From IMG/VR virus record IMGVR_UViG_3300031251_000089, positions 1-27,668 of that record: a stretch of DNA of 27,668 nt. The stretch is one strand, 5' to 3'. Below, in pieces: positions 1,501 through 27,668 of the stretch. This stretch comes from a virus. Every line of letters starts with the position of its first letter. The first letter of the stretch is position 1. The translations under genes and the position numbers were made by a program. The notes below the pieces were generated by a model. The model was not told the DNA's origin. It ran no database searches and worked only from the letters and a program-made list of their open reading frames with translations.

Positions 1501-2676
1501 ATGGCTGACGCCTCCGACCCCTTCGCCCCCGAGGCCTTCCAGAAACCGCCGCGCGAGGTCACGCGCTTCTTCAATGAGAAGAAGCTCGAGCCCTCCTGGC
1601 ATTGGCAGGACGTCTGGGGCGAGGAGCATGCGCACGCCTTCACCGTGGCGAAGACGGCAGGCTATGACGTGCTGGGCGACATTCGCGACGCGGTGAAGAA
1701 GGCGCTCGACGAGCGCCAGGACTTCGAGCAGTTCCGCGCCGGGCTCGAGCCCATCCTCAAATCCAAGGGGTGGTGGGGCAAAGCCTCCGCCGTCGATCCA
1801 CTCACGGGCAAAAGCCAAGAGGTGCAACTCGGCTCGGCGCGCCGCCTCAAGACGATCTATTGGGCGAATATCGAGACGGCCTATGCGGCGGGCGATTGGG
1901 AGCGCAGCTGGCGCACGCGAAAGGCGCTGCCCTATCTCGAATATCTGATCTCCACGGCCGCGCACAAAAGGCTCGAGCATCTGGCGCAGGTCGGCACGGT
2001 CGAGCCCGTCGAGAGCCCCTATTGGGACAGCTGGTATCCGCCCTCGGCCTGGGGCTGCCAATGCCGCGTGCGGCAGATCTCGCAGATGGAGGCCGAAACG
2101 CGCCCGCGCTTCGGCCAGACGCCGGAGGACTTAGGGAGCCGCGAGTTCGTCAATAAGCGCACGGGCGAGGTGCAGCGCGTGCCCAATGGAATCGATCCGG
2201 GCTGGCACACCAATCCCGGCAAGACGCGCATGAAGGCCGCCGCCGATCTTATCGGCGGCCGGCTCGACGCCATGCCCGAGGACATCCGCCGCATCGCGGC
2301 GACGGACCTCGCCGACGGCCATATGTTCCGCCTCATCGCCTCGGGGGGCTTTCCCTTCGATCCCGCCTCGCTCGATCCCGAGATGATCAATCGCGGCCAG
2401 ATCGCGCTGCCCTTCGCGAGCCTGCCGAAGAAGATCGCCAGCGAGCTGGGCTCGACGGCGCGCACGCTGCGCCTCTCGGCGAAGGACGCGGCCTCGATCG
2501 ACGCGGTGCCGGAGGATTATGCGCTCGTGCAGACGATCCTCGATCATGGGAAGGTCGCGAGCGAGGGAACAGTCGAGGCGGAGATCGACGGGGAGGTCCG
2601 GCGCTTGAAGCTGCGCGTCGAGGCGGGCGGCGCGGCGGTCTATCTGGAGGGGATGGAAGGAGCGAGTGGCGAGTAG
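1501..2676 (+). CDS. Mu gpF-like head morphogenesis protein with C-terminal PBECR-like domain
   Basis: This is a minor head protein of the Mu gpF / SPP1 gp7 family, needed for head assembly and probably bound to the portal. The N-terminal 230 residues show the family pattern, with the diagnostic YWDSWYPPSAWGCQCRVRQ block near residues 174-195, equivalent to the gp7 Cys-x-Cys-Arg motif. The C-terminal part (about 300-391) reads LPKKIASELGSTARTLRLS...EDYALVQTILDHG, which resembles the phage Barnase-EndoU-ColicinE5/D-RelE-like (PBECR) nuclease-fold domains often fused to gpF proteins. I cannot confirm its catalytic residues. The start is supported by GGAGAG a few bases upstream (1492-1497). The last codons (...ASGE-stop) are written in heptamer repeat copy 2, so the repeat reaches into the coding end. 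Confidence 0.88.
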   Translation: MADASDPFAPEAFQKPPREVTRFFNEKKLEPSWHWQDVWGEEHAHAFTVAKTAGYDVLGDIRDAVKKALDERQDFEQFRAGLEPILKSKGWWGKASAVDPLTGKSQEVQLGSARRLKTIYWANIETAYAAGDWERSWRTRKALPYLEYLISTAAHKRLEHLAQVGTVEPVESPYWDSWYPPSAWGCQCRVRQISQMEAETRPRFGQTPEDLGSREFVNKRTGEVQRVPNGIDPGWHTNPGKTRMKAAADLIGGRLDAMPEDIRRIAATDLADGHMFRLIASGGFPFDPASLDPEMINRGQIALPFASLPKKIASELGSTARTLRLSAKDAASIDAVPEDYALVQTILDHGKVASEGTVEAEIDGEVRRLKLRVEAGGAAVYLEGMEGASGE

Positions 2677-2725: not shown

Positions 2726-2844
2726 AATCGTTTTCGACCGGCGAGTGGACGCGGCGACGCGAAAAATGCGCCGGTGGCGTTCAATGATGCTTTAACGTCG
2801 AAGCTGGAGGCGAGGGCCGCATCGCTCTTGCGCGGCGCAGCCTG

Positions 2845-2967
2845 CTAGCCACCTTCGCGGATGAATTCGACAAGGCCTGTGGTGAAGCCGATCGCCAGGG
2901 CCACGGGGAACCAGACGGGAGCAGTGACCCACCAAAAGACGCGCTGCGCGGGCTCGGGAATGTCCAT
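2845..2967 (-). CDS. Small single-pass membrane protein, 40 residues
   Basis: The reading frame begins MDIPEPAQRVFWWVTAPVWF and ends GLVEFIREGG. A strong ribosome binding site, AAGGAAGGAGA, lies a few bases upstream of the ATG. Residues 10-31 are hydrophobic and aromatic (FWW, VWF, then VALAIGF), which looks like one transmembrane helix with an amphipathic charged C-terminus. It lies 89 nt downstream of the giant spike-like gene on the same strand, so the two probably share a transcript. I do not recognise a family. A small accessory membrane protein of the cassette (holin-like, anchor, or exclusion function) is possible but unproven. Size and clean initiation support a real gene. Confidence 0.6.
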   Translation of the reverse strand: MDIPEPAQRVFWWVTAPVWFPVALAIGFTTGLVEFIREGG

Positions 2968-3056
2968 GTCTGTTCTCCTTCCTTCGGGTCACGGGCTTTC
3001 GATCAGCACGGCTTCACCATCGCCGTCCTTGGCGACGGCGCCACTCGAGTTGCTCC

Positions 3057-6000
3057 TTACGAGAAGTGTTCGACGATCTTGCCAGCCCCATTGCCGCCAG
3101 CGCCGCCAAGAGCCGGGGTTCCACCGTTTTGGACGCAGCCGGCCCCGCCGCCGGCCGCGCCAAGCGCGCCTGCTCCGCCAGCGCCCGCGGACGTGGCATG
3201 TGAGCCGCCGCCGCCGCCGCCCGAGCCCGGAGCCAAGGGGATGGCGCTGGCGTTTGTCGGTAGGTTTCCGTTGCTGCCATTAACTCCTGTTGCCCCGGCT
3301 AAGCCCCCAGCGACGGCCGCCAGCGTTGGCGGATAGATCGATCCACCCGCTCCACCCGAGAACATGCCGTTACCTGCGGAGATGCCGCCGCCCGCGCCGC
3401 CGCCCGACGCCGCAAGCGCACCGCCAACCACCGCGCCGTTCGGCCCTACAGCTCCGTTTGCGCCGCCAGCCCCGGATGTCGGTTGGTTGGGCATTGTCGC
3501 AGCCGCGCCGAAGGTGCCGGAGCCTCCCGCAATACCAAAGATTCCGCCAGCGATCCCTCCTGTCGCGCTCGTCGCGTTTCCGCCAGCGCCCTGAGTGCCG
3601 GCGCTTCCGCCGCCGCCAGAGTTGCCCGCTAACTGCCCACCGGCACCGCCTCCTCCTGGACCCGCCCACAGATAGTAAGTCGTTCCGTTCCAGAGATAGC
3701 TCGCCTGTCCTCCACCGCCGTTTCCGCCGGCAGAGCTAGATCCCGTCGCTGCCGCGCCAGCCGCGCCGCCAGCGCCGATATATACAGACAGGGTTCCGGT
3801 AAGCGCGGAAACCTGCATCTCTGCGGCCTTCACAAAAGAAGCGCCGCCGCCAGAGCCGCCAGAACATGCGTTGCTTGTGGCCTGCTCTGCACCACCGCCG
3901 CCACCGCCACCACCACCGAGCAAGAAGACTTCAATCCACTTTGCGCCGACGCTCGCCGTGTAAGTGACAGGAGAGCCGGTATAGGAATAGCTGATAATGT
4001 TCGTCGCGGTTGGCGCGGAGGGCGCTCCACCATCGGACATGCAGTTATGCGTGGCGTCATATCCCAGCGCGTCGCCATTCGTGATCGAGCCGCAGAGCGG
4101 CGGCATGAACTGACCGTTCGCACCAACCGCGCCGCCAGGAAACGCGATCGCGTTACTCGTCGAGCCGCCGATCAGGTTGATCGGTGTGCTGGTGAGCGTG
4201 ATGTTTGCCGGCGTCGCGAAATTTGCAGCCAGCGTATAGCCATTTCCCGTCGTTCCCGAGAGTTGCGACGTGAACAAGAGCGTCGATCCGTCGACGGCGT
4301 AGCTCATCTTGGCGGTGAGCGTGGATGTCGAGATATTCCACGCGTTCACGGCGTTCTGTAGGGTCGCCGCAAGCGTCGCGCCGATCTGCACTTGGAACGT
4401 CGTTGTGACGGTGCTCTTGAACGTCCAGACGTCACCGTCGAGCGTGATCGTATCTCCGTCGGCCGGCTGCCCGGAGAGGGTCGCGCCGCGCCAAGCGTGG
4501 ACGCCGTTGCCGATGAACCCGTGCAGGCCCCAGAGTATTCCGGCAGGGTCAAGAGCAATAGGAGACGCCGCATAGGGGAGCGTTTGTGCGTTAAACAGAT
4601 TCACCCAGCTCTCGTTGCCGCCGGCGACGGGAGCGACTTCAGCCCATTCGTCTCCCGGCATGCCGTTGCCGAATAGCAGCGCGTCAGTCGAATCAAAGGA
4701 CGCGTTGGCCGCGCCCGCATTGAGCGTGACGACCGGATTGCCTGCGGTATCCAGACCGACGAGCAGCGCGTCGGGGCTCCCTGGATAGGTTCCCGAGGAA
4801 GCAGCAGCGGCGGGAGCAGCTAGCGTGACGACGAGAGTTCCTGTGTCACAGGATGTCACGCCGGCGATGAACGTCGATGACGTGTAGTCGTAGATATTAC
4901 TTCCCGCCGTGACGCCGGTGCAGGACGCGACTGCAATAGTCGAGGCTCCAGACGCCCATGACGCCGTCGCCGCAACAGAGGCCGGCGTCGTGCAGGACTT
5001 AACTGCGCCAAGCCATTTCGAGTTCTTCGAATCGTAGGCGTTGTTGCCGGCCGCGACGCCCGTGCAGGACGCTACGGAGATCTGCGTTGTCGCCGAGGCC
5101 CAGGCCGCTACCGCCGCAACAGAGGTCGGCGTCGTCGACGTCGGTGCGCCGGTCGACTTGTTGATGTGGATCTCGTGGCCGCCCTTTGGCTCTCCGATCG
5201 AGAAGCCGAAGTTGAAGCTCGGAATGGCGGTGTTCGCGACGCCGAAGCCCGCGTCAGAGCGGCCGACCCAGCCGAGAGCCGGCGACGATATCCAGGGAAG
5301 CGTGTAATTACTGCTGTTACTCTGCGTGATCGCGCCACGCGACGGGTCGTAGAGAAAGAGGAGCTGGTTCAGGCTGCTCGCGCAGCTCGAGGCGAACGCC
5401 AGGAGAAAATAGGACTGCGACTCGTTCGAGATCAAAACGCCTGGTTCCGTGCCCTGGCCGCAGAATTTCCAAGTTCCCTCAAAGAGGCCGCGTCCGATGC
5501 CGGGACCGTCTCCAGGATCAGGCGCGATAGCGGAGCCGAGATGACCCATGCCCAAGGATCCAGTCACCGCGTTAGGCGGCGTGGAGAACGGAGCATTCTG
5601 ATCCATGCACTCCCAGTCGTTGCCGGCGACGTATTCACCGACAGACCATTCGTAGTTTTGCAATCCGCAGTTGAAGATGCGCGGATAGGTGCAAACGCCA
5701 GACTCCCAGCACTCAGAAAGGCTTCCAGAATGAAGCGAGCCGACGCCGCCGAACAGCACCTGATCGACGAAATAAGAGTAGGCGAAAAAATTATCCTTAA
5801 CGACACCGCCGCCTGTGTTGTCGCCAGAGTCGAATAGACCGATGATCGTGTTTTCGGTGCCATTGTGGCTGATGTCCGAGAACACACAATTCAGCGCTGG
5901 AGCCATTGCCGAGTCGCAAGGGAAGTTGATCCCGGTTGGAAAGCCAACGACGAAATTATCGCTAACGGCGGCGTTTTGCAGAATGTCGATGCCCTGCGGA

Positions 6001-8255
6001 ATCAACCAGAGGTTCTGGGGCGTGGAGCCATCGCCGCTGAGCGCAACCGGACTATAGATATTGACCTTTGATGGATCGACAGTCGGGAGCTCGCGTGGAT
6101 CATAGAATGTGAACGTGCGCGTTGCGCCCGAGACCGTGACACCCTTAACGAGGGTTCCGAACGGGTAAGGCCCCCAGACCATGTCGCCAGGACGCAGCGC
6201 AGACAGCGGCGACGAGCCAATCGACACATTCGACGCCGTCGTCGTGGCTTTCTGCGAGAGCGTGTAATTTCCGGAGGCGTCTATAGAGAGCACCGTCGAG
6301 AAGATCGGAACAATCGGAACAATCGGCGTCGATGTGGTGCCTGCTGTGATCGTGTCGCCAACCGCGGGCAGAGACCCTTGCGAGCAGCTCGACACCGTCA
6401 TTGTGGGCGACCCACTCGTGAAGCTCGCCGTGCAGAGATTAGGTAGTTTCTCCGTCGCGGCGCTCACTCCCGCCGTCGTCACGAATTGATGCGCGAGCGC
6501 CGCAGGCAAACGCCAGACAGCCAGATTGTGCGGGCCGTAGACGACGAAGGGAGGACCGCCGGTCACGGCCTGCGGCAGCGTGTGCAACTTATCAGGTGTG
6601 CGGAGATAGTAAGCCGCGACATCCCCAGGCAGCGTCGCAGCGCCAGTATGGGCGATCGTCTCATTGACAGTGCCGATGCGCACGACGTCGCCGACCTGGA
6701 GCGAGCCAGTTTGCGTCGTGACGTGCATGACGGAGCCGTAAACGAAGGCGATTCCCGACCACGTTCTCGGCGTATAGGAGCAAGTTCCAGAGCAGGTGTA
6801 ATTCGGGTAGGTTCCGCCGCTCACTGTGCCGACGAGCGTCCCGCCAAAATCACTGCGACCATAGTAAATCGACGCGCCGACGGGAATCTTGGTTGCTTGG
6901 GAGATATCGGTCGAGACGACGAAATTCCCGCCCGAAATCGATCCTAGAAAAGCAGCGGTCGATGGCACGGTCAGCGGATGCGCGGAGTCGACGGTGAGCG
7001 TATTACTCGTCATCGGCCCCGTAACTGTCGCACCGCCCTGCGTCACGACACCCCAATCGTCCGTGATGGTGGTGTTAAGGTTGTATTTCCAACCCGTCGT
7101 CGCGATGATTCCGTCGCCCGCCGCCCAATTCTGCACGGGAATGTCGCCGATCGTGTTGGGCGCACGCGTGTTGGTGATGACCTGTGAACCGGTATAGGCG
7201 GTCGAGATCGTGCTCAGATTATTGGTGAAGCTGCCGACCGAGAAGACGCCGCAGTTACGAAAATGAGCACCGGCGACACCGTTATCCCAGGGAGAAAAGC
7301 CGCCCGTGTCGATGCGAACTCCGGTCACGCCCGCGGCGAAGGCGAGATAGACCGAGGGCGTTCTGTAGGTATTGACGCCCTCGCAATAGATTTCTCCAGC
7401 ATGCGACTCATCCAGCGTCTTCGAGAAGTAATAGACGCTCGGCGTCGCGCCGGCGACGATCGTCTGGCTCGTGTCGGTCCGACTGGCGGCTTGCGAGAGT
7501 ACGTAAGTTCCCGCGCCGCCCGCTGTGGGCGCGGAGATGATCGACGTGAAAATCGGCAGAATCGGAGTCGGCGAGGTCTGAGTCGTCAGAATGACTTCGT
7601 TCGCCGCAAGCGTTCCCGACGAACAGCCGGAAACGGTCATGATGTTCGACTGAGCGGTAAAGGACGCCGTGCAGCTCGCCTGCGAGCTGCTGCCTGGAAT
7701 GACCGGGAAATAGACGCGCTTGCCCGTCGCGCGGACGGCGTTGATATAAGGCAGAAGCGGCGCGTTATCGAAGCCGCCGCCCGCTGTGACGCAAGTCTGC
7801 ACGCCCGCGACGGGACCGCAGATGCTCGTCGCCGCGACGGCGTCGGGAGCGACGTTGGCGAGTTTCCCCGAGGTGTCCCAGCCGGCCATGTAGCCAGGCA
7901 TCGAGCCGGGGATCGCGTGGCCGACGCTGAAGAGCGCGGGGTCGGCGGTGACCAGCACATTGGTCGGCGTCGAGGTCCGCGCCCGCGCCCAGATGTGCTG
8001 CGCGCCGGTGAAATCATTGGACGCGCCGACGTTGAGATAGGTCGTGGGATCGCCGGACGGGGGCGCCGTCGGCGTCGACGGGTCGGAAACCGCGAATTGC
8101 GCCTCACCGCCGGGGAATTGATTTTGGACCGTGGCCGGCCCGGCCCCGAGATCGGTCCAGCTCCCCTGGGAGAGCGAGACCGTTGCGGCCTGCGCCGCGC
8201 CCGCTGCGAAAAGCGCCGCGATCGCCAGCGCCCAGAGCCCGTTTCTCATCCGCAT
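3057..8255 (-). CDS. Giant secreted tailspike/fibre-like protein (signal peptide, beta-helix-like body, Gly-rich C-terminus)
   Basis: The protein has 1732 residues and is encoded against the phage late operon. Residues 1-23 look like a Sec signal peptide: MRMR, a hydrophobic core ALAIAALFAAGA, then AQA before A24. Residues 160-185 (GFDNAPLLPYINAVRATGKRVYF) fit the entry to pectate-lyase-like right-handed beta-helix tailspikes. Irregular beta-rich sequence follows to about 1040. A repeated module occurs at about 195-275 and 608-685 (CTASFTxxSxxMTVSxCSxGxL). Two 48-residue tandem units follow at 1042-1137. Residues 1257-1365 (GDTITLDGDVWTFK...GTTGNGYTLA) resemble a module seen in phage tail proteins. 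Residues 1447-1725 are very Gly-rich, like adhesin tips of phage fibres. The ATG has GAGGGGAAG upstream. A tail fibre role fits the modules. The signal peptide and orientation instead suggest a secreted, lysogeny-expressed surface protein. Base use is visibly less GC-biased than in its neighbours. Confidence 0.75.
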   Translation of the reverse strand: MRMRNGLWALAIAALFAAGAAQAATVSLSQGSWTDLGAGPATVQNQFPGGEAQFAVSDPSTPTAPPSGDPTTYLNVGASNDFTGAQHIWARARTSTPTNVLVTADPALFSVGHAIPGSMPGYMAGWDTSGKLANVAPDAVAATSICGPVAGVQTCVTAGGGFDNAPLLPYINAVRATGKRVYFPVIPGSSSQASCTASFTAQSNIMTVSGCSSGTLAANEVILTTQTSPTPILPIFTSIISAPTAGGAGTYVLSQAASRTDTSQTIVAGATPSVYYFSKTLDESHAGEIYCEGVNTYRTPSVYLAFAAGVTGVRIDTGGFSPWDNGVAGAHFRNCGVFSVGSFTNNLSTISTAYTGSQVITNTRAPNTIGDIPVQNWAAGDGIIATTGWKYNLNTTITDDWGVVTQGGATVTGPMTSNTLTVDSAHPLTVPSTAAFLGSISGGNFVVSTDISQATKIPVGASIYYGRSDFGGTLVGTVSGGTYPNYTCSGTCSYTPRTWSGIAFVYGSVMHVTTQTGSLQVGDVVRIGTVNETIAHTGAATLPGDVAAYYLRTPDKLHTLPQAVTGGPPFVVYGPHNLAVWRLPAALAHQFVTTAGVSAATEKLPNLCTASFTSGSPTMTVSSCSQGSLPAVGDTITAGTTSTPIVPIVPIFSTVLSIDASGNYTLSQKATTTASNVSIGSSPLSALRPGDMVWGPYPFGTLVKGVTVSGATRTFTFYDPRELPTVDPSKVNIYSPVALSGDGSTPQNLWLIPQGIDILQNAAVSDNFVVGFPTGINFPCDSAMAPALNCVFSDISHNGTENTIIGLFDSGDNTGGGVVKDNFFAYSYFVDQVLFGGVGSLHSGSLSECWESGVCTYPRIFNCGLQNYEWSVGEYVAGNDWECMDQNAPFSTPPNAVTGSLGMGHLGSAIAPDPGDGPGIGRGLFEGTWKFCGQGTEPGVLISNESQSYFLLAFASSCASSLNQLLFLYDPSRGAITQSNSSNYTLPWISSPALGWVGRSDAGFGVANTAIPSFNFGFSIGEPKGGHEIHINKSTGAPTSTTPTSVAAVAAWASATTQISVASCTGVAAGNNAYDSKNSKWLGAVKSCTTPASVAATASWASGASTIAVASCTGVTAGSNIYDYTSSTFIAGVTSCDTGTLVVTLAAPAAAASSGTYPGSPDALLVGLDTAGNPVVTLNAGAANASFDSTDALLFGNGMPGDEWAEVAPVAGGNESWVNLFNAQTLPYAASPIALDPAGILWGLHGFIGNGVHAWRGATLSGQPADGDTITLDGDVWTFKSTVTTTFQVQIGATLAATLQNAVNAWNISTSTLTAKMSYAVDGSTLLFTSQLSGTTGNGYTLAANFATPANITLTSTPINLIGGSTSNAIAFPGGAVGANGQFMPPLCGSITNGDALGYDATHNCMSDGGAPSAPTATNIISYSYTGSPVTYTASVGAKWIEVFLLGGGGGGGGGAEQATSNACSGGSGGGASFVKAAEMQVSALTGTLSVYIGAGGAAGAAATGSSSAGGNGGGGQASYLWNGTTYYLWAGPGGGGAGGQLAGNSGGGGSAGTQGAGGNATSATGGIAGGIFGIAGGSGTFGAAATMPNQPTSGAGGANGAVGPNGAVVGGALAASGGGAGGGISAGNGMFSGGAGGSIYPPTLAAVAGGLAGATGVNGSNGNLPTNASAIPLAPGSGGGGGGSHATSAGAGGAGALGAAGGGAGCVQNGGTPALGGAGGNGAGKIVEHFS
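4845..5132 (-). repeat. Two tandem 144-nt units inside the spike-like gene
   Basis: Residues 1042-1089 and 1090-1137 of the minus-strand protein are diverged copies of one 48-residue unit. Both contain TPxSVAA, AWAS or SWAS, VASCTGV.AG, a Y-D pair and a closing SC-T. The DNA copies remain clearly alignable. This is a duplicated structural module, probably beta-rich with a Cys pair per copy. Confidence 0.75.
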
Positions 8256-8348
8256 GAGTGCTTCCCCTCGGGCGCATAGCCCGTCGTATTCGACGGACGT
8301 CCGAGAGGACGCCCGAAGGGAATGCTAGCGAAGGGCTTAGCGGGGGAT

Positions 8349-8368
8349 GTCCCGACAGCTGTCGGGAC
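8349..8368. promoter_or_regulatory. Perfect 20-bp palindrome between divergent genes
   Basis: GTCCCGACAGCTGTCGGGAC is its own reverse complement. It lies 94 bp upstream of the minus-strand spike gene start and 58 bp upstream of the chosen start of the plus-strand protease gene. It could be a dimeric operator or a hairpin. No convincing sigma-70 boxes could be placed around it. A second palindrome with the same arms lies at 20972-20987. The region 8256-8426 holds otherwise only the two ribosome binding sites. Confidence 0.6.
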
Positions 8369-8426
8369 TTTGGCGGGAGGGGAACTTTGCGACTTTGCAC
8401 CGTCCAAAACGGAGGCGCAAGCCCTC

Positions 8427-9446
8427 ATGCCGACACCGGATCGCCCCAACTCGGAACGTAAGCGCAGTCCGCCGCAGAGCGCGGCGGACATGCGCTTCTT
8501 CGATCCCGTGGCGTTGAATTTCGAAGGCCATGCGCCTGCGCCCTGGCAGCGCGTCGTGCCGCCGGGCGCGGAGGTCAAGGGCCGGGACGATCGGCGATTT
8601 CAATTCGCCGATCGCGCCGCGCTCGTTTCCGCCTTCAACGCCTCCATCCCCGTGCCCGTCGACTTCAACCACGCGGAATTCTTGAAAGCCCCGCAGGGCG
8701 ACGAAAGCCCCGCCGCCGGCTGGATGGAGGAGCTGCGCCTCTCTTCCGATGGCAGTATCGAGGCGCGCATCGAATGGAACGCCTCCGGCGCCGAGGCTAT
8801 CGCCACACGCGCCTATCGCTTCCTCTCGCCGGTGTTTCGCGTCGACGCCAAGGGCGCGGTGAAAAGCATCGCCGGCGCGGGCCTCGTCAACCGTCCCAAT
8901 CTCGATCTGCCGGCGCTGAACGCCGAGGGAGAAAGCACGATGAAAGGTCTCTTGAAGAAGCTCGGGCTCGCCGAGGAGACGAGCGAGAGCGACGCGATCG
9001 CGGCCGTCGAGCGCCTGCAGACGCAGGCGAACGCCACGCGGGTCGACCTCTCCACTTACGTGCCGCGCGCCGATTACGAGCTCGCGCTCAATTCCGCCAA
9101 GGAGGCGAAAGACGCTCTCGCCAAGCGCGACGCCGACGAATTCAAGGCCAAGGCGCAAGCTCTCGTCGACGGCGCTATTCAATCCGGCAAGGTCGCGCCG
9201 GCCTCGCGCGAGCATTGGCTGGCGCTCTGCGCCGATCAAAGCGGGCTCGAGCGCGTGGAGAAGCTCATCGGCGCGCAGCCCTCGCATTTCAAGTCGGCCG
9301 TCGATCCCTCGCGCAAGCCGCCGGAAGGCGACGCGCCCGCGCTCAACGCCGAGCAGAAGAAGATGCTCGCCGCCTGCGGGATCACGGAGGAGTCCTATCT
9401 CGCGTCGCAGAAAGAGCTCGAGGCGCGCCGCGCCGCCGTGGCGTGA
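8427..9446 (+). CDS. Mu gpI-like head maturation protease / scaffold precursor
   Basis: The 339-residue protein is the Mu gpI-type prohead protease, with the scaffold region as its C-terminal half. The N-terminal domain has the family layout: VPVDFNHAEF at 77-86 (the DFxH-type motif), ESPAAGWMEEL, an EARIEW strand, then YRFLSPVF and a GLVNRPN block before the linker. From about residue 172 on it is helical, charged and Ala-rich, as expected of a scaffold. The frame is open further upstream to 8322, but that start would have its ribosome binding site almost touching the ATG and would translate across the palindrome at 8349-8368. The ATG at 8427 has GGAGG 11 nt upstream and is preferred. An ATG at 8490 (MRFFDPVAL) is an alternative. 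Confidence 0.85.
   Translation: MPTPDRPNSERKRSPPQSAADMRFFDPVALNFEGHAPAPWQRVVPPGAEVKGRDDRRFQFADRAALVSAFNASIPVPVDFNHAEFLKAPQGDESPAAGWMEELRLSSDGSIEARIEWNASGAEAIATRAYRFLSPVFRVDAKGAVKSIAGAGLVNRPNLDLPALNAEGESTMKGLLKKLGLAEETSESDAIAAVERLQTQANATRVDLSTYVPRADYELALNSAKEAKDALAKRDADEFKAKAQALVDGAIQSGKVAPASREHWLALCADQSGLERVEKLIGAQPSHFKSAVDPSRKPPEGDAPALNAEQKKMLAACGITEESYLASQKELEARRAAVA
8940..9446 (+). CDS. Nested gpZ-like scaffold protein from an internal start
   Basis: An in-frame ATG (MKGLLKKLGLAEETSESDA) occurs at the boundary between the protease and scaffold parts of the gpI-like gene, with GAGGGAGA about 8 nt upstream. It would give a 168-residue protein identical to the C-terminal half. Phage Mu is known to make its scaffold gpZ from such an internal start inside gene I. 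Both the position at the linker and the good binding site support the same arrangement here. The internal initiation is inferred and not shown. Confidence 0.65.
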   Translation: MKGLLKKLGLAEETSESDAIAAVERLQTQANATRVDLSTYVPRADYELALNSAKEAKDALAKRDADEFKAKAQALVDGAIQSGKVAPASREHWLALCADQSGLERVEKLIGAQPSHFKSAVDPSRKPPEGDAPALNAEQKKMLAACGITEESYLASQKELEARRAAVA

Positions 9447-12629: not shown

Positions 12630-13231
12630 CCGGAACTCTCCCGCATCTGCCGACGAGCCTCGACGATTTCCGCGACGCGGTCGTCTCCACGATCCAAGCG
12701 GCCATGCCGGGCGTGGATGTGGCCGGGCACAATGGCGCCTTCGGCGAGAAGGACATCCAGATTTTCGGGGCCAAGGCCCCGGCCGTGCGCGTCGCCGTGC
12801 TCGGCTGGAGCCTCGAGGAACTGAACGCCGTCGGCATCGTCGTGCCGGTCAAATGCTCCGCCGTTCTCGTCACGGCCGACGCGAAGGCGGACGACGGAAA
12901 GATCCTGCCGCGCGACCGCGCGCAGCTCGTGCTCGGCACGCAGCTCGCGATCCTCCTGAACTCGTCGCGCTTCGGCTTCAACCTCACCAAGCAGCCAGCG
13001 CAGGTGAAGGGCGAGAACCGCTATGAGGCGTCCTTCTTCGCCAAAGGCCTGGCGCTCATGGAGGTGACCTGGACGAGCAAGACCACCTTCGGCGTGCAGG
13101 CCGCCCAGCAGCTGGGCGCGCTCGCGCAGGTCTATGTGAACGGGACGCTGCTGCTCGATCCCGCTGACACGGGCGCCGATGTTCCCCTCGCCCCGCCCAA
13201 CGCGCCCTTCACGCCGCCGGAGGGATCGTAG
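12626..13231 (+). CDS. Mu gp37-like protein (DUF1834)
   Basis: The 201-residue protein starts at GTG and overlaps the preceding stop by 4 nt. It resembles the DUF1834 / Mu gp37 family by order, size and the central alternating pattern (AVRVAVLGWSLEEL, IVVPVKCSAVLVTADAK, LGTQLAILLNSSRFG, RYEASFFAKGLALMEVTWTSKTTFG). The family lies at the head-to-tail junction in Mu. The C-terminal 30 residues are Pro/Ala-rich and probably disordered. This is the last clearly Mu-type gene. The P2-type tail genes begin after the repeat that follows. Confidence 0.75.
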   Translation: MTGTLPHLPTSLDDFRDAVVSTIQAAMPGVDVAGHNGAFGEKDIQIFGAKAPAVRVAVLGWSLEELNAVGIVVPVKCSAVLVTADAKADDGKILPRDRAQLVLGTQLAILLNSSRFGFNLTKQPAQVKGENRYEASFFAKGLALMEVTWTSKTTFGVQAAQQLGALAQVYVNGTLLLDPADTGADVPLAPPNAPFTPPEGS

Positions 13232-13232
13232 C

Positions 13233-13275
13233 CATGCGCCGGAAAAGTGGGAACCGGTTTTCCGATAAGCGCATG
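13233..13275. repeat. Rhizobiales-type intergenic inverted repeat
   Basis: Outer arms CATGCGC (13233-13239) and GCGCATG (13269-13275) enclose inner arms CGGAAAA (13240-13246) and TTTTCCG (13258-13264) around a GTGGGAACCGG core. I recall very similar GGAAAAGTGGGAACCGGTTT-type elements between genes in many Rhizobiales chromosomes, but cannot search. It sits between the last Mu-type gene and the first P2-type gene. Confidence 0.75.
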
Positions 13276-13289
13276 GCGGGAGAGCGCTA

Positions 13290-13973
13290 ATGCAGGGCTA
13301 TGTCGCGCTCGCCGACCATTTGCGGCTGCAAAAGACCGTCGATGATCTGGCCTTCCAGGTCGCGGAGTCGCATCGGCGCATCGCCAATCTGCTCACGCCG
13401 GGCACGGTGAAAAGCTTCGATCCGCAAAAGGGCGCCGTCGTCGACGTGGGCTTCGAGACGCATCAGATCGAGCACGGCATGCACAGCGGCACGGGCAAGG
13501 ACTGGCAGCCCTTGAAGGAGGGCCAGAAGGTCACGGTGCTCTGCCCCTCGGGCGATTTTAGCAACGCCTTCATCATTCCCGGCGGATTTCACGATCAGAA
13601 CCCCGCGCCCTCGCAATCGGCGGGAGAGGACATTCGCGGGCAGCGCGGGACGGACGACAAGCCCGTGCGCCTCATCACCACGGACACGTCCTCGACGCTC
13701 GACAATCAGGCGAAGCAGACGAGCGTCACGGCGGGCGACGGGATCGCCTCGCTCACCAACGCCGGCAAGAAGACGAGCGTCAACGCCGGCGACAAGGTGG
13801 CGGAGCTCGTCAACGACGGCGAGAAATCTTTCGTGCGCGCCCGCAAGAGCGGCTGCGTCACCTGCGAGGTCACGGACCAGCAGAAGTTCCTCATCGTGGT
13901 GGGCCAGGGCTCGAGCCAGAAGGCCTATTACATCGACCCCTCCGTGCTGCGTGAGACCAGCATTCCCAGCTAA
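13290..13973 (+). CDS. V: Baseplate spike protein gpV (P2-like)
   Basis: The 227-residue protein is the central baseplate spike that pierces the outer membrane. The N-terminal region carries the OB-fold pattern of P2 gpV (GTVKSFDPQKGAVVDVGF, then WQPLKEGQKVTVLCPSGDFSNAFIIPGGF). The C-terminal half has the repeated short strands typical of the triple-stranded spike (SVTAGDGIASLTNAGKKTSVNAGDKVAELVNDG). The ATG follows GGGAGAG. P2 gpV is of similar length. It opens the tail block V-W-J-I, with one small unknown gene inserted after it. Confidence 0.9.
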   Translation: MQGYVALADHLRLQKTVDDLAFQVAESHRRIANLLTPGTVKSFDPQKGAVVDVGFETHQIEHGMHSGTGKDWQPLKEGQKVTVLCPSGDFSNAFIIPGGFHDQNPAPSQSAGEDIRGQRGTDDKPVRLITTDTSSTLDNQAKQTSVTAGDGIASLTNAGKKTSVNAGDKVAELVNDGEKSFVRARKSGCVTCEVTDQQKFLIVVGQGSSQKAYYIDPSVLRETSIPS

Positions 13974-19361: not shown

Positions 19362-20519
19362 ATGGCGCTTCCGCCCGACATCGATTTCGAGAAGGACCCC
19401 GCCGCCTCGCCCAGTCGCATGAACAAGGCGATGACGGCGCTCGACTGGCGCATCAAGGCGCTCGAGGTCTATCGTCCCGGCCTCGACGCGCTCTTGAACC
19501 AGCTCCAGCAGATCGGGCTCGACCGGCTCGACGCCGCGCTGCGGCCGGTCTACGACCAGCTCACGGCCTGGAGCCTCGCGGGCGTCACGGGACCCGCCGG
19601 ACCCGCCGGGCCTGCGGGCGCGGCCGGCGCCAATGGCTCCCCCGGCGCGCCTGGGTCTGTCGGGCCGGCAGGTCCAGCAGGACCGCAGGGGCCGCAAGGG
19701 ATCGTCGGCGCGTCCGGCGCGACGGGCCCGATGGGCCCCACGGGCCAGCCCGCGCGGCAGACCGTGCTCGCGGGGCCGGTCGACGGCAATGGCTTCCCGA
19801 ATTTCCTGCCGGCGACGTCAGGATCGCTCTCGCTCACGACGCAGAACATCTCGGGGTCCAATCCGCTCATCGTCTCGGCGGCGCAGGGCTTCTCCGCGCA
19901 GGGGGGCGTCGACAATGTCGTGGGGCTCGGCGCCAATGTGACCTGGTCTGGCCTGCCGGCGAACTCCACGGTCTTTCTCTTCGTCAATGCGAGCACGGGC
20001 GCGCCGGTCTGGATCGGGATCGCGCCCCTCTATCAGAACGCCGCGCCCTCCGTTTCGAACTACCAGTTCACCTTCCAGATCGCGTCGATGACCGGCTATC
20101 TCGGCAATGGGACGGCGGCCGTGGCGACGCCGCTCGTCTGCGTCGGCGAATGCGTGACGAACGCGAGCTCGGTGACCTCGACGGTCGCCTACGCCTATCG
20201 CGGCGCCTATGACTCCGGATGGACGCAGAACCTGCCGGGGACCAGCACGTCGGTCTCCTTCAACAGCAATCTCGGCGTCAAGGATGCGGTCTTCGGCTTC
20301 ATCGCCGAATGCACGACGGCGACGCAGGGCTTTTCCGTCGGCGATCAGCTCGATGTGTTTTTGAATGGCGGTTTCTATTCTGCCGGCGGCACGAGAAATC
20401 AGTCGTGGATCTCGACCTATAATTCGACGCCGACCATCTTCCCCAAGGGTGGCGGCTCCCTCGCCACGGTGACCACGACAAGCTGGAAATACAAGCTCAT
20501 CGCTAAGCGGAGGTGGTGA
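19362..20519 (+). CDS. Collagen-like tail fibre protein
   Basis: The 385-residue protein starts with a helical segment (about 15-70: [34 protein letters not shown]) that could bind the baseplate or trimerise. Then comes an uninterrupted run of about 19 Gly-X-Y triplets (residues 74-130, many GPA and GPQ), a collagen-like trimeric shaft known from many phage fibres. The C-terminal 250 residues are Ser/Thr/Asn/Gly-rich beta sequence with a closing [14 protein letters not shown]. This is the pattern of receptor-binding tips. A second fibre next to the 759-residue protein suggests more than one adhesin. GAGGA lies 7 nt upstream of the start. Confidence 0.85.
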
Positions 20520-25899: not shown

Positions 25900-26321
25900 T
25901 GGCTGGCGAGGTCCTTCTGGCCTGGGGGCCGCATCTCTTCACCGTGGGCTCCATGTCCTATGAGGAGCTGGAGCGCCGCGCCGCCGGCCGCTGGATGGAT
26001 CACGAGATCATCGGGCGAAGGCCGGCCGGACAATATCTCGGCCCCGGCCTCGAGCCCGTGCGAGTCATCGGCTGCGTCTTTCCCCTGGAGATGACGGGCG
26101 GCGAGGACGCCATGATCCAGGCGCTCATGGCCGATGTCTCCGTCGGCCAGGTCTATTCGCTCATCGCCATGTCCGGCGACGTCATCGGCGTCTATCGCTG
26201 CCAGGTCGCGCAGAAGCGCGGCAGCTTAGCTACGAGCTGGGGCGCGGATCAGCGCATCCTCTACGAATTCACCTTCCTGCCGCAAGAAGACGCGGGGCAG
26301 GTCTTTGGGTCCTGGCCATAG
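25899..26321 (+). CDS. U: Tail completion protein gpU (P2-like)
   Basis: The 140-residue protein (P2 gpU is about 159) caps the tail or ends tube growth. It opens with [27 protein letters not shown], the conserved gpU start (FxVxTLPYQxLxR-type). Later come [24 protein letters not shown] near 41-64 and a middle with [23 protein letters not shown]. It ends with an EFTFLPQED strand. The start overlaps the DUF6527 stop (TGATG). The P2 order T-U-X-D is kept, with a GapR gene inserted before gpX. Confidence 0.87.
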
Positions 26322-26331
26322 GAGAAGCGCG

Positions 26332-26568
26332 ATGGGCTATGTGGACGGCGGTCATCTCAAGGCCTTCATCGAGCGGGTCGAGAAGCTCGAGGAGGAGAAG
26401 CGCTCCATCGGCGACGACATCAAGGATGTCTATGCCGAGGCGAAGAGCATGGGCTTCGATCCCGGCGTGATGCGCAAGATCGTCTCGCTGCGCCGCCAGG
26501 ACAGCGGCCGCCGCGAGGAGGAGGCGAACATCCTCGAGCTTTATCTGCAAACGCTGGGGATGGCGTGA
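26332..26568 (+). CDS. GapR-like nucleoid-associated protein (DUF2312)
   Basis: The 78-residue protein (Caulobacter GapR is about 89) has the family core almost end to end: [38 protein letters not shown], then [12 protein letters not shown] and [17 protein letters not shown]. GapR binds overtwisted or AT-rich DNA as a coiled-coil tetramer. The basic stretch MRKIVSLRR matches the DNA-binding part. AGGAGA lies 7 nt upstream of the ATG. An in-frame ATG at 26305 overlaps gpU and is less likely. The gene sits between gpU and gpX, an odd place for a DNA-binding protein. Its stop overlaps the gpX start. Confidence 0.85.
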
Positions 26569-26786
26569 TGCCCACGAGCTATGTGACGCAGCAGGGCGAT
26601 ATGGTCGACGCCATCGCCTATGTGCATTACGGGACCGAGCATGGCGGGACGGCCGAGGCGATCCTCGCCGCCAATCCCGGCCTCGCCGCGCACGGCCCTG
26701 TGCTGCCGCCCAATCTCCGGCTCACCCTCCCTGATCTTCCGGCGCCCGCGACCCCGCAGCTCGCGCAAGTGAGCCTTTACTCATGA
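26568..26786 (+). CDS. X: Tail protein gpX (P2-like, LysM-like fold)
   Basis: The 72-residue protein (P2 gpX is 67) has the pattern [22 protein letters not shown], then an Ala/Asn block (EAILAANPGLAAHGPVLPPNLRLTLPD). These are the LysM-like lines of the tail X family. It probably sits near the tail tip or hub between gpU and gpD. The start overlaps the GapR stop by one base and its stop overlaps the gpD start (ATGA). Confidence 0.85.
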   Translation: MPTSYVTQQGDMVDAIAYVHYGTEHGGTAEAILAANPGLAAHGPVLPPNLRLTLPDLPAPATPQLAQVSLYS

Positions 26787-27668
26787 CGCCCGAGGTCACC
26801 GTCTCGCTCGGCGGCAATGCGCTCGGCGCGGTGGCGCAGCGCGCGCTTTCCGGCCGCATCATCGAGTCGGACGGGGAGAAGGCCGACGAGCTCATGCTCG
26901 AGGTCTCCAATTTCGACGGCCGCCTGCAAAAGCCCAAGACCGGGCAGACCGTGACCGTCTCGCTCGGCTGGAAGGAGATCGGCACGATCAAGGTCGGCCA
27001 GTTCACCATCCTCAACGTCTCGAAGCGCGGGCCGAAGGCGGTGTTTCTGATCTCCGGCCATTCCGCCGATCTCGCCAAGACGCTGAAAGGTAGCAAGCGG
27101 CGCGGCTGGAAGGACCCGAAGAAACTGGGCGACGTGTTCAAGGACATCGCCCAGGACAATCAGCTTTCCCCGCAGATCGACCAGGCGGTGCAGCAGATCA
27201 AGATCGAGACGATCGTCGCTCAGACGGACGAGAGCGACATGCATCTCATGACGCGCCTCGCGCGCCATCACGATCTGATCGCCAAGGTGCAGGACGGCAA
27301 TCTCGTCGTCGTGCCGCGCGGCAAGGGCACGGCCGCCTCCGGCCAGGCCATGGGTTCCGTGACCGTGACGCCGCAGGACACCTCGGGCGAGTTTTCCTTC
27401 GACTATAACGACCGAAATGAGCGCGGCCATTCCAAGGGCACGCAGTTCGAGCGCGGCAAGGCCAAGCGCAACAGCAAGAAGAGCCAGTCCGGATCGAGCC
27501 AGGGGAGCGACTCTCCCGACTGGACGCACGCTCATATTTTCGGGGGCTCGGACGAGGCGCAGCGCCACGCCGACGGCCGCAAGGGCAAGTTCGACCGCGA
27601 CACGGCGCGGGTTCACCTGCCGCTGCGGCCAGGGCTGACCGGCGTCGCGCCGGGCGGCGTCATCCAGA
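26783..27668 (+). CDS. D: Late protein gpD / baseplate hub (P2-like), 3' end cut by window
   Basis: The reading frame begins at the ATG overlapping the gpX stop and stays open to the right edge, giving about 295 residues (P2 gpD is 387). Family features are the opening PEVTVSLGGNALGAVAQRALSG, the DELMLEVSNFDGRLQKPKTGQTVTVSLGW block (about 34-65), then GHSADLAKTLKGSKRRGWKDPKKLGDVFKDIAQ near 93-128. DESDMHLMTRLARHHDLIAKV follows. It is a hub that connects the tube to the spike gpV, so both tail parts are covered in this window. The missing end lies to the right. Confidence 0.9.
   Translation, partial: MTPEVTVSLGGNALGAVAQRALSGRIIESDGEKADELMLEVSNFDGRLQKPKTGQTVTVSLGWKEIGTIKVGQFTILNVSKRGPKAVFLISGHSADLAKTLKGSKRRGWKDPKKLGDVFKDIAQDNQLSPQIDQAVQQIKIETIVAQTDESDMHLMTRLARHHDLIAKVQDGNLVVVPRGKGTAASGQAMGSVTVTPQDTSGEFSFDYNDRNERGHSKGTQFERGKAKRNSKKSQSGSSQGSDSPDWTHAHIFGGSDEAQRHADGRKGKFDRDTARVHLPLRPGLTGVAPGGVIQ

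Follow-up and report, generated by a model that had tools for sequence, protein, structure and literature searches.

An antisense cassette encoding a predicted exported fibre-type protein at the F/I cargo locus of a Mu-like alphaproteobacterial phage

Mu-like phages of the D3112/JBD30 type in Pseudomonas carry anti-CRISPR (acr) genes at the F/G-I locus (PMC4378225); in D3112 and JBD30 themselves these genes lie between G and I. Gene I of Mu is served by a late promoter of its own that depends on C (PMC4461284), and the mutations by which the central gyrase site came to light were mapped close to G and I (PMC10052514). Here we describe the F/I junction of IMG/VR record IMGVR_UViG_3300031251_000089, a whole contig of 27,668 bases (the window). 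It carries Mu-like genes for head and tail: those for the portal, F, I, a structural protein, the major head protein T, the neck and the baseplate, for a fibre of collagen type (19362-20519), for the sheath and the tube, and for what is probably the tape measure. The window is from a virus of alphaproteobacteria whose host, judged by the nearest prophages, probably belongs to the Rhizobiales. At its F/I junction lies an antisense pair of genes, one for a giant fibre-type protein with a predicted export signal (the spike) and one for a membrane protein of 40 residues.

Cargo at the F/I junction

The genes flanking the cassette are both on the plus strand and the cassette genes both on the minus strand, as an earlier note on this DNA had described. 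The main features are as follows.

1501 to 2676, plus strand: gpF-like minor head protein, left flank (PF04233, phrog_220)
2845 to 2967, minus strand: 40-residue single-span membrane protein, downstream of the spike (strong Shine-Dalgarno; phrog_1374, E 0.003)
3057 to 8255, minus strand: predicted exported fibre-type protein, the spike, 1732 residues (open reading frame (ORF) call, open-frame chance, domain homologies)
3060 to 4037, minus strand: Gly-rich receptor-binding-type tip of the spike, residues 1407-1732 (phmmer, AlphaFold2, Foldseek)
4038 to 7940, minus strand: orphan body of the spike, about residues 106-1406 (no relatives found)
7941 to 8186, minus strand: WTDLG N-domain of the spike, about residues 24-105 (homology to stand-alone tail-module proteins)
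8187 to 8255, minus strand: predicted Sec signal peptide, residues 1-23 (signal-peptide rule)
8322 to 9446, plus strand: gpI-like head maturation protease, right flank (PF10123, phrog_328)

Homology of I begins near residue 63 of the called frame, so the true start is probably near 8490.

For comparison of the junction we collected 46 loci via the portal, 80 via alignment of F, and 20 prophage regions from Rhizobiales genomes; in most of these, the distance from F to I is a few hundred bases. The nearest relatives of the window have F proteins 60-66% identical to its own. No gene separates F and I in L006, L007 and L053, L008 has a longer F, and L004 carries two antisense genes, one for a protein of 345 residues (5021-6058, minus strand) with a WTDLG-like start, a weak match, and no signal peptide, the other for a signal-bearing protein of 358 residues that matches phrog_5939 'tail protein' (E 1.3e-27). 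Behind F in L005 (also L052/L054), a siphovirus-type tail cluster runs antisense and ends in a signal-bearing fibre-like protein of 790 residues and a small signal-bearing protein. The portal and F of L005/L054 (IMGVR_UViG_3300031250_000006) are near the Mu-like ones of the window, yet the antisense tail cluster resembles that of a gene transfer agent (GTA); judged by its gene content, this is a head/tail module exchange at the F junction.

Cargo of other kinds occupies the same site elsewhere. It includes antisense OLD/GajA-like (L079) and LmuA-like (L119) genes recognised by PADLOC, an antisense gene for a protein of 672 residues with a weak HATPase match (L124), a HEPN-like gene (L081), genes for small secreted proteins (L117, L253, L255, L259, L265) and, in L109, different cargo again. 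The closely related Mu-like prophages L258 and L259 of genome G165 differ in what they carry between F and I and offer a natural pair for the study of locus reloading.

The earlier note had held that Mu-type phages are unbroken between gpF and the protease. This view is contradicted by the acr genes of D3112 and JBD30 and by the cargo of the relatives above; taken with the promoter of Mu gene I and the mapping of the gyrase site, they indicate that F/I is a natural boundary and cargo site and not an unbroken operon. By this comparison, the window cassette is accessory DNA inserted at a Mu-like phage's F/I cargo site. Its proposed separate acquisition agrees with the variability of the site: the insert is absent in L006, L007 and L053 and replaced in L004 by a different cassette, likewise antisense and fibre-type. 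The lower GC content cited for separate origin is real, at 63.1% versus 66.8% for the rest, with third-position GC of 0.73 versus 0.75-0.91 for late genes, and is consistent with such an origin; as evidence it is weak, because composition is skewed by the tip and by a body rich in Thr and Ser.

The spike and its relatives

At the GC content here, an open frame of the spike's length (1755 codons) would arise by chance with a probability of about 3e-22, and a Shine-Dalgarno-like GAGGGG stands upstream of its ATG. The N-terminus, MRMRNGLWALAIAALFAAGAAQA followed by ATV, is predicted to be a Sec-type signal cleaved after residue 23, in agreement with the earlier note; it scores 5.16 by a signal-peptide rule that is home-made, not SignalP, and calibrated by internal and upstream controls only. 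Its core length and AxA motif are of the kind recognised by signal peptidase I, and the spike is the sole ORF in the window to pass the rule. Across all the tail-tip loci described below, 28 of 133 fibre-like N-termini were positive, as against 1 of 465 internal windows of fibre-like proteins. Intrinsic terminators occur at chance level.

The homology of the tip is strong and bears out the Gly-rich fibre tip proposed earlier: against phage fibre tips, phmmer gives E values of 8e-28 to 3e-14. The alignment reaches the last residues with L181 (E 8e-28) and L166 (E 2e-24), both Mtd_N fibres lacking a signal peptide, and the tip is likewise homologous to proteins of L162, L209 and L202, which are signal-bearing, stand-alone and consist of little besides the tip. 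Its Pfam match is PF21722-like (E 1e-3, under the Pfam gathering score). In host genomes, tips of this type are carried by DUF2793 proteins, the family of the RcGTA tail fibre (PMC10883770, PMC7296036). The tip was modelled with AlphaFold2 (pTM 0.77), and in Foldseek this model has matches to the Bxb1 tail tip (9d93, E 4e-8), to the Pam3 fibre at a weak level, and to 234 viral models, many of them of Gly-rich phage proteins. A scan of viral contigs for the Gly pattern itself was swamped by low complexity and dropped.

At the other end, the N-domain recurs with a signal peptide in phage G9 (L135 11753-12301, minus strand, 182 residues; E 2e-4 to 5e-3 in a single-sequence search) and without one in L178 (13606-14175, pairwise E 5e-5). 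G9 is a related Mu-like phage, and the gene belongs to its tail module, on the sense strand. The adjacent gene encodes a signal-bearing GDSL esterase of 603 residues (L135 9933-11744, minus strand; PF13472, E 7.5e-14), and further along, ahead of the sheath gene, lies one for a signal-bearing fibre-like protein of 785 residues. That the recognisable domains of the spike derive from tail-fibre modules is well supported by these homologies.

The body between them has internal Cys-paired repeats around residues 193-268 and 608-680 and a third pair around 1046-1136. A single-sequence structure model reached a pLDDT of 32, leaving unconfirmed the beta-helix that the earlier note had suggested. Searches of viral contigs, cultured phages, plasmids and Rhizobiales genomes with the whole spike returned no relative and one weak partial match, the body by itself gave marginal matches only, and a PDB sequence search gave none. 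Outside the tip, Pfam and PHROG yielded no match, with no Mtd_N, DUF2793 or known PHROG fibre base, and Pfam no GDSL domain. Other identities were considered and rejected. The C-terminus is the Gly-rich tip, with no Pfam barrel and no YadA anchor as in an autotransporter or type V adhesin; the cleavage site, AQA-AT, has no lipobox Cys at +1 as in an Llp-type lipoprotein; and PADLOC models of known anti-phage defence families match neither the spike nor the 40-residue protein.

Signal peptides recur on fibre-type proteins of other phages. A scan with the GTA-like tail tip of L005 gave 80 loci; nearly all examples of the class are metagenomic. Of 35 distinct phages, 15 encode a signal-bearing fibre-like protein downstream of Mtd_N; the upstream control gave 1 of 35, itself a fibre-like gene, and the antisense control none. 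In family A5, found by homology, all 25 loci carry the signal, 23 of them as judged by the rule and 2 by eye; the search pattern behind this count included the Ala at -1, and identical or nearly identical phages account for some of the loci. Its genes mostly follow the Mtd_N gene by 25-140 bases, on the same strand. The number of Cys residues is even in 19 of 24 signal-bearing fibres, the sequences being related, and in a broad set the Cys enrichment over other fibre-like ORFs was not significant (p 0.12). Besides the G9 esterase, a GDSL domain occurs in the class at L209 9650-11692. The parts checked of cultured phages Polewnik, Kuura, RcKemmy, Orisa03 and Lyrsu01 held no member of the class, and the open-licence papers searched yielded no report of signal peptides on tail-fibre proteins. 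From these comparisons, export-tagged fibre-type proteins look to be a recurring and apparently undescribed class in alphaproteobacterial phages, and a possible source of soluble receptor-binding domains and esterases for alphaproteobacteria.

Since members of the class stand on the sense strand in the tail operons of relatives, it is not confined to lysogen-only cassettes. The spike had been proposed to be a moron expressed in the lysogen. Lysogen-type cargo at F/I (anti-CRISPR, OLD/GajA-like, LmuA-like, HEPN-like and small secreted proteins) and predicted Sec export fit that proposal. An export signal by itself is not grounds for setting the protein apart from tail fibres, as had been assumed, given that the domains of the spike come from tail-fibre modules and that signal-bearing fibres lie in tail operons.

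Further members or neighbours of the class deserve mention. A small protein encoded behind the tip gene has a signal peptide in L162 (14833-15291, 152 residues) and none in its apparent L209 counterpart (13181-13594, 137 residues), so gain or loss of the signal may occur inside the module. Behind signal-bearing fibre genes, L184 (14592-21734) and L216 (14625-21332) have giant fibre-like ORFs of 2,380 and 2,235 residues, with signal-like hydrophobic starts and a size like that of the window spike.

Neighbouring elements of the window

The second cassette gene is preceded by AAGGAAGGAGAACAGACATG and encodes one hydrophobic span, matching its earlier description as a single-pass protein with a strong ribosome binding site; among phages we found no relative of weight. 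Further sequence features flank the pair.

2669 to 2702, unstranded: inverted repeat at the F stop (from the sequence)
2776 to 2797, plus strand: conserved non-coding element, consensus GGCTTTCAATGGCCTTTTAACG, between F and the cassette
8349 to 8368, unstranded: perfect palindrome of 20 bp, after the start of the spike and before the probable start of I in window coordinates (from the sequence)

The 22-base element is present in the F-I interval of about 18 relatives and absent from shuffled sequence (0 sites); its sites include L004 3901, L005 8598, L006 12658, L053 11242 and L063 5120. The cassettes of the window and of L004 sit between the element and I. The element may serve I as a late promoter, or it may be a gyrase site of the central type.

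In the tail operon, a small gene (26305-26568, plus strand) matches phrog_4212 (E 4e-28) and, weakly, phrog_639 'transcriptional regulator'; we take its product to resemble the GapR/DUF2312 DNA-binding proteins. The ORF at 26777-27616 (minus strand) is probably spurious, and from about 26784 the plus strand reads a tail/late-control protein off the contig end.

Possible roles and comparison with known systems

What might an exported fibre-type protein do? We tentatively favour, as a possibility that falls somewhat short of probable, an action of the spike at the cell envelope from its accessory locus, most likely as a receptor mask. We propose a model in which the spike gene would have a promoter of its own, active in the lysogen, in the infected cell or in both, and the protein would pass through Sec, lose 23 residues and form disulfides in the periplasm. 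The receptor-binding tip would then engage a glycan or protein of the cell envelope, and the occupied or altered receptor would exclude other phages, perhaps GTAs, with the same kind of tip, while progeny would be kept off the producing cell and its debris. The periplasm may be where the spike acts, or lysis may release it, and a role of the 40-residue protein as partner or anchor is a guess. Envelope action is favoured because the F/I locus carries cargo and the spike lacks a virion base.

Several observations weigh against this model. A scan for sigma-70 promoters found nothing above chance. The spike has no device for crossing the outer membrane, neither autotransporter barrel nor lipobox, so its display on the surface lacks explanation. 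The phage's own fibre (19362-20519) is of the collagen type and unlike the spike, and self-exclusion by the same tip is therefore not implied. The body, some 1,300 residues, is by all searches an orphan. Finally, Mtd_N proteins are shorter where signal-bearing fibres are present (p 6e-4, not corrected for relatedness of the sequences), which suggests that in some phages signal-bearing fibres may take the place of a virion component.

This last point leads to the strongest competing explanation, which we consider unlikely: the signal-bearing proteins, the spike included, would be true parts of the virion fibre or spike that pass via Sec, acquire their disulfide-bonded fold in the periplasm and are added to the tail while the cell lyses or afterwards. 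Some phages have the tip fused to an Mtd_N base, and others have it as a separate protein with a signal peptide, for which reason a virion role keeps some standing. The genes for signal-bearing fibres lie directly behind the fibre gene, and Mtd_N proteins are short where such fibres follow. However, the proteins of L162 and L209 have no recognisable docking domain between signal peptide and tip, the window has a separate full fibre gene and an antisense spike cassette, and assembly of tailed phages is, as far as known, cytoplasmic. In a broader version, to which we give a little less credence, many alphaproteobacterial phages would route their own fibre parts or tips through Sec, with disulfide folding in the periplasm and attachment outside the cytoplasm, and the window would hold a giant, mobile version in an accessory locus. 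The usual view is that both synthesis and mounting of tail fibres take place in the cytoplasm. Conservation of a Sec signal on proteins encoded right behind the fibre gene, some of them with tips like those of virion-type fibres, would point either to exported weapons or shields or to virion assembly after export.

Rather improbable, in our view, is a lysogenic-conversion adhesin or surface enzyme serving the host in biofilm formation, attachment or glycan modification, unrelated to phage exclusion. It would suit the export signal, the large size, a locus used for lysogen-type cargo and the signal-bearing GDSL esterases of the same class, but the recognisable spike domains derive from tail-fibre modules and the signal-bearing fibres of relatives belong to the sense tail operon. 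Least credible is a hydrophobic N-terminus that is no working signal, whether an uncleaved membrane anchor or a remnant on a decaying fibre gene landed backwards: the antisense position, negative promoter scan and orphan body would allow it, but the 1732-codon frame is open with no sign of decay, the signal is kept in homologous families (all 25 A5 loci), and its core and AxA motif suit signal peptidase I.

Returning to envelope action, the spike can be set beside several described systems. GDSL/SGNH phage fibres and spikes resemble it through the GDSL domains of signal-class relatives; the GDSL and fibre proteins of cultured phages that we checked have no signal peptide, and the window spike has no GDSL match. 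The tip is homologous over its full length to, and shares the predicted fold of, PF21722/phrog_863 tail proteins, the Bxb1 tail tip and DUF2793 fibres of the RcGTA Rcc00171 type. Unlike in those Gly-rich fibres, it follows a signal peptide and an orphan body, without an Mtd_N or DUF2793 base. A gene for a Gly-rich virion fibre would be expected in the tail module and on its strand, as are those of signal-bearing relatives of the spike in other phages; the spike gene is antisense in the head module. With T5 Llp the likeness is in the proposed job only, that of an exported phage protein that blocks a receptor and spares progeny (PMC9586334). Llp is a small lipoprotein acting from the periplasm on FhuA (PMC9586334), while the spike, at 1,732 residues, is fibre-type, has no lipobox and is unrelated.

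The closest parallel for the locus is the F/G-I locus of D3112 and JBD30, which shares with the window its position, the variability of its cargo and the absence of that cargo in relatives. There the acr genes are small and co-directional, whereas the window cargo is a 5.4-kb antisense pair with a giant, predicted exported fibre-type protein; if the spike does act at the envelope, the anti-CRISPR locus of Mu-like phages would hold envelope-acting cargo besides intracellular defence genes.

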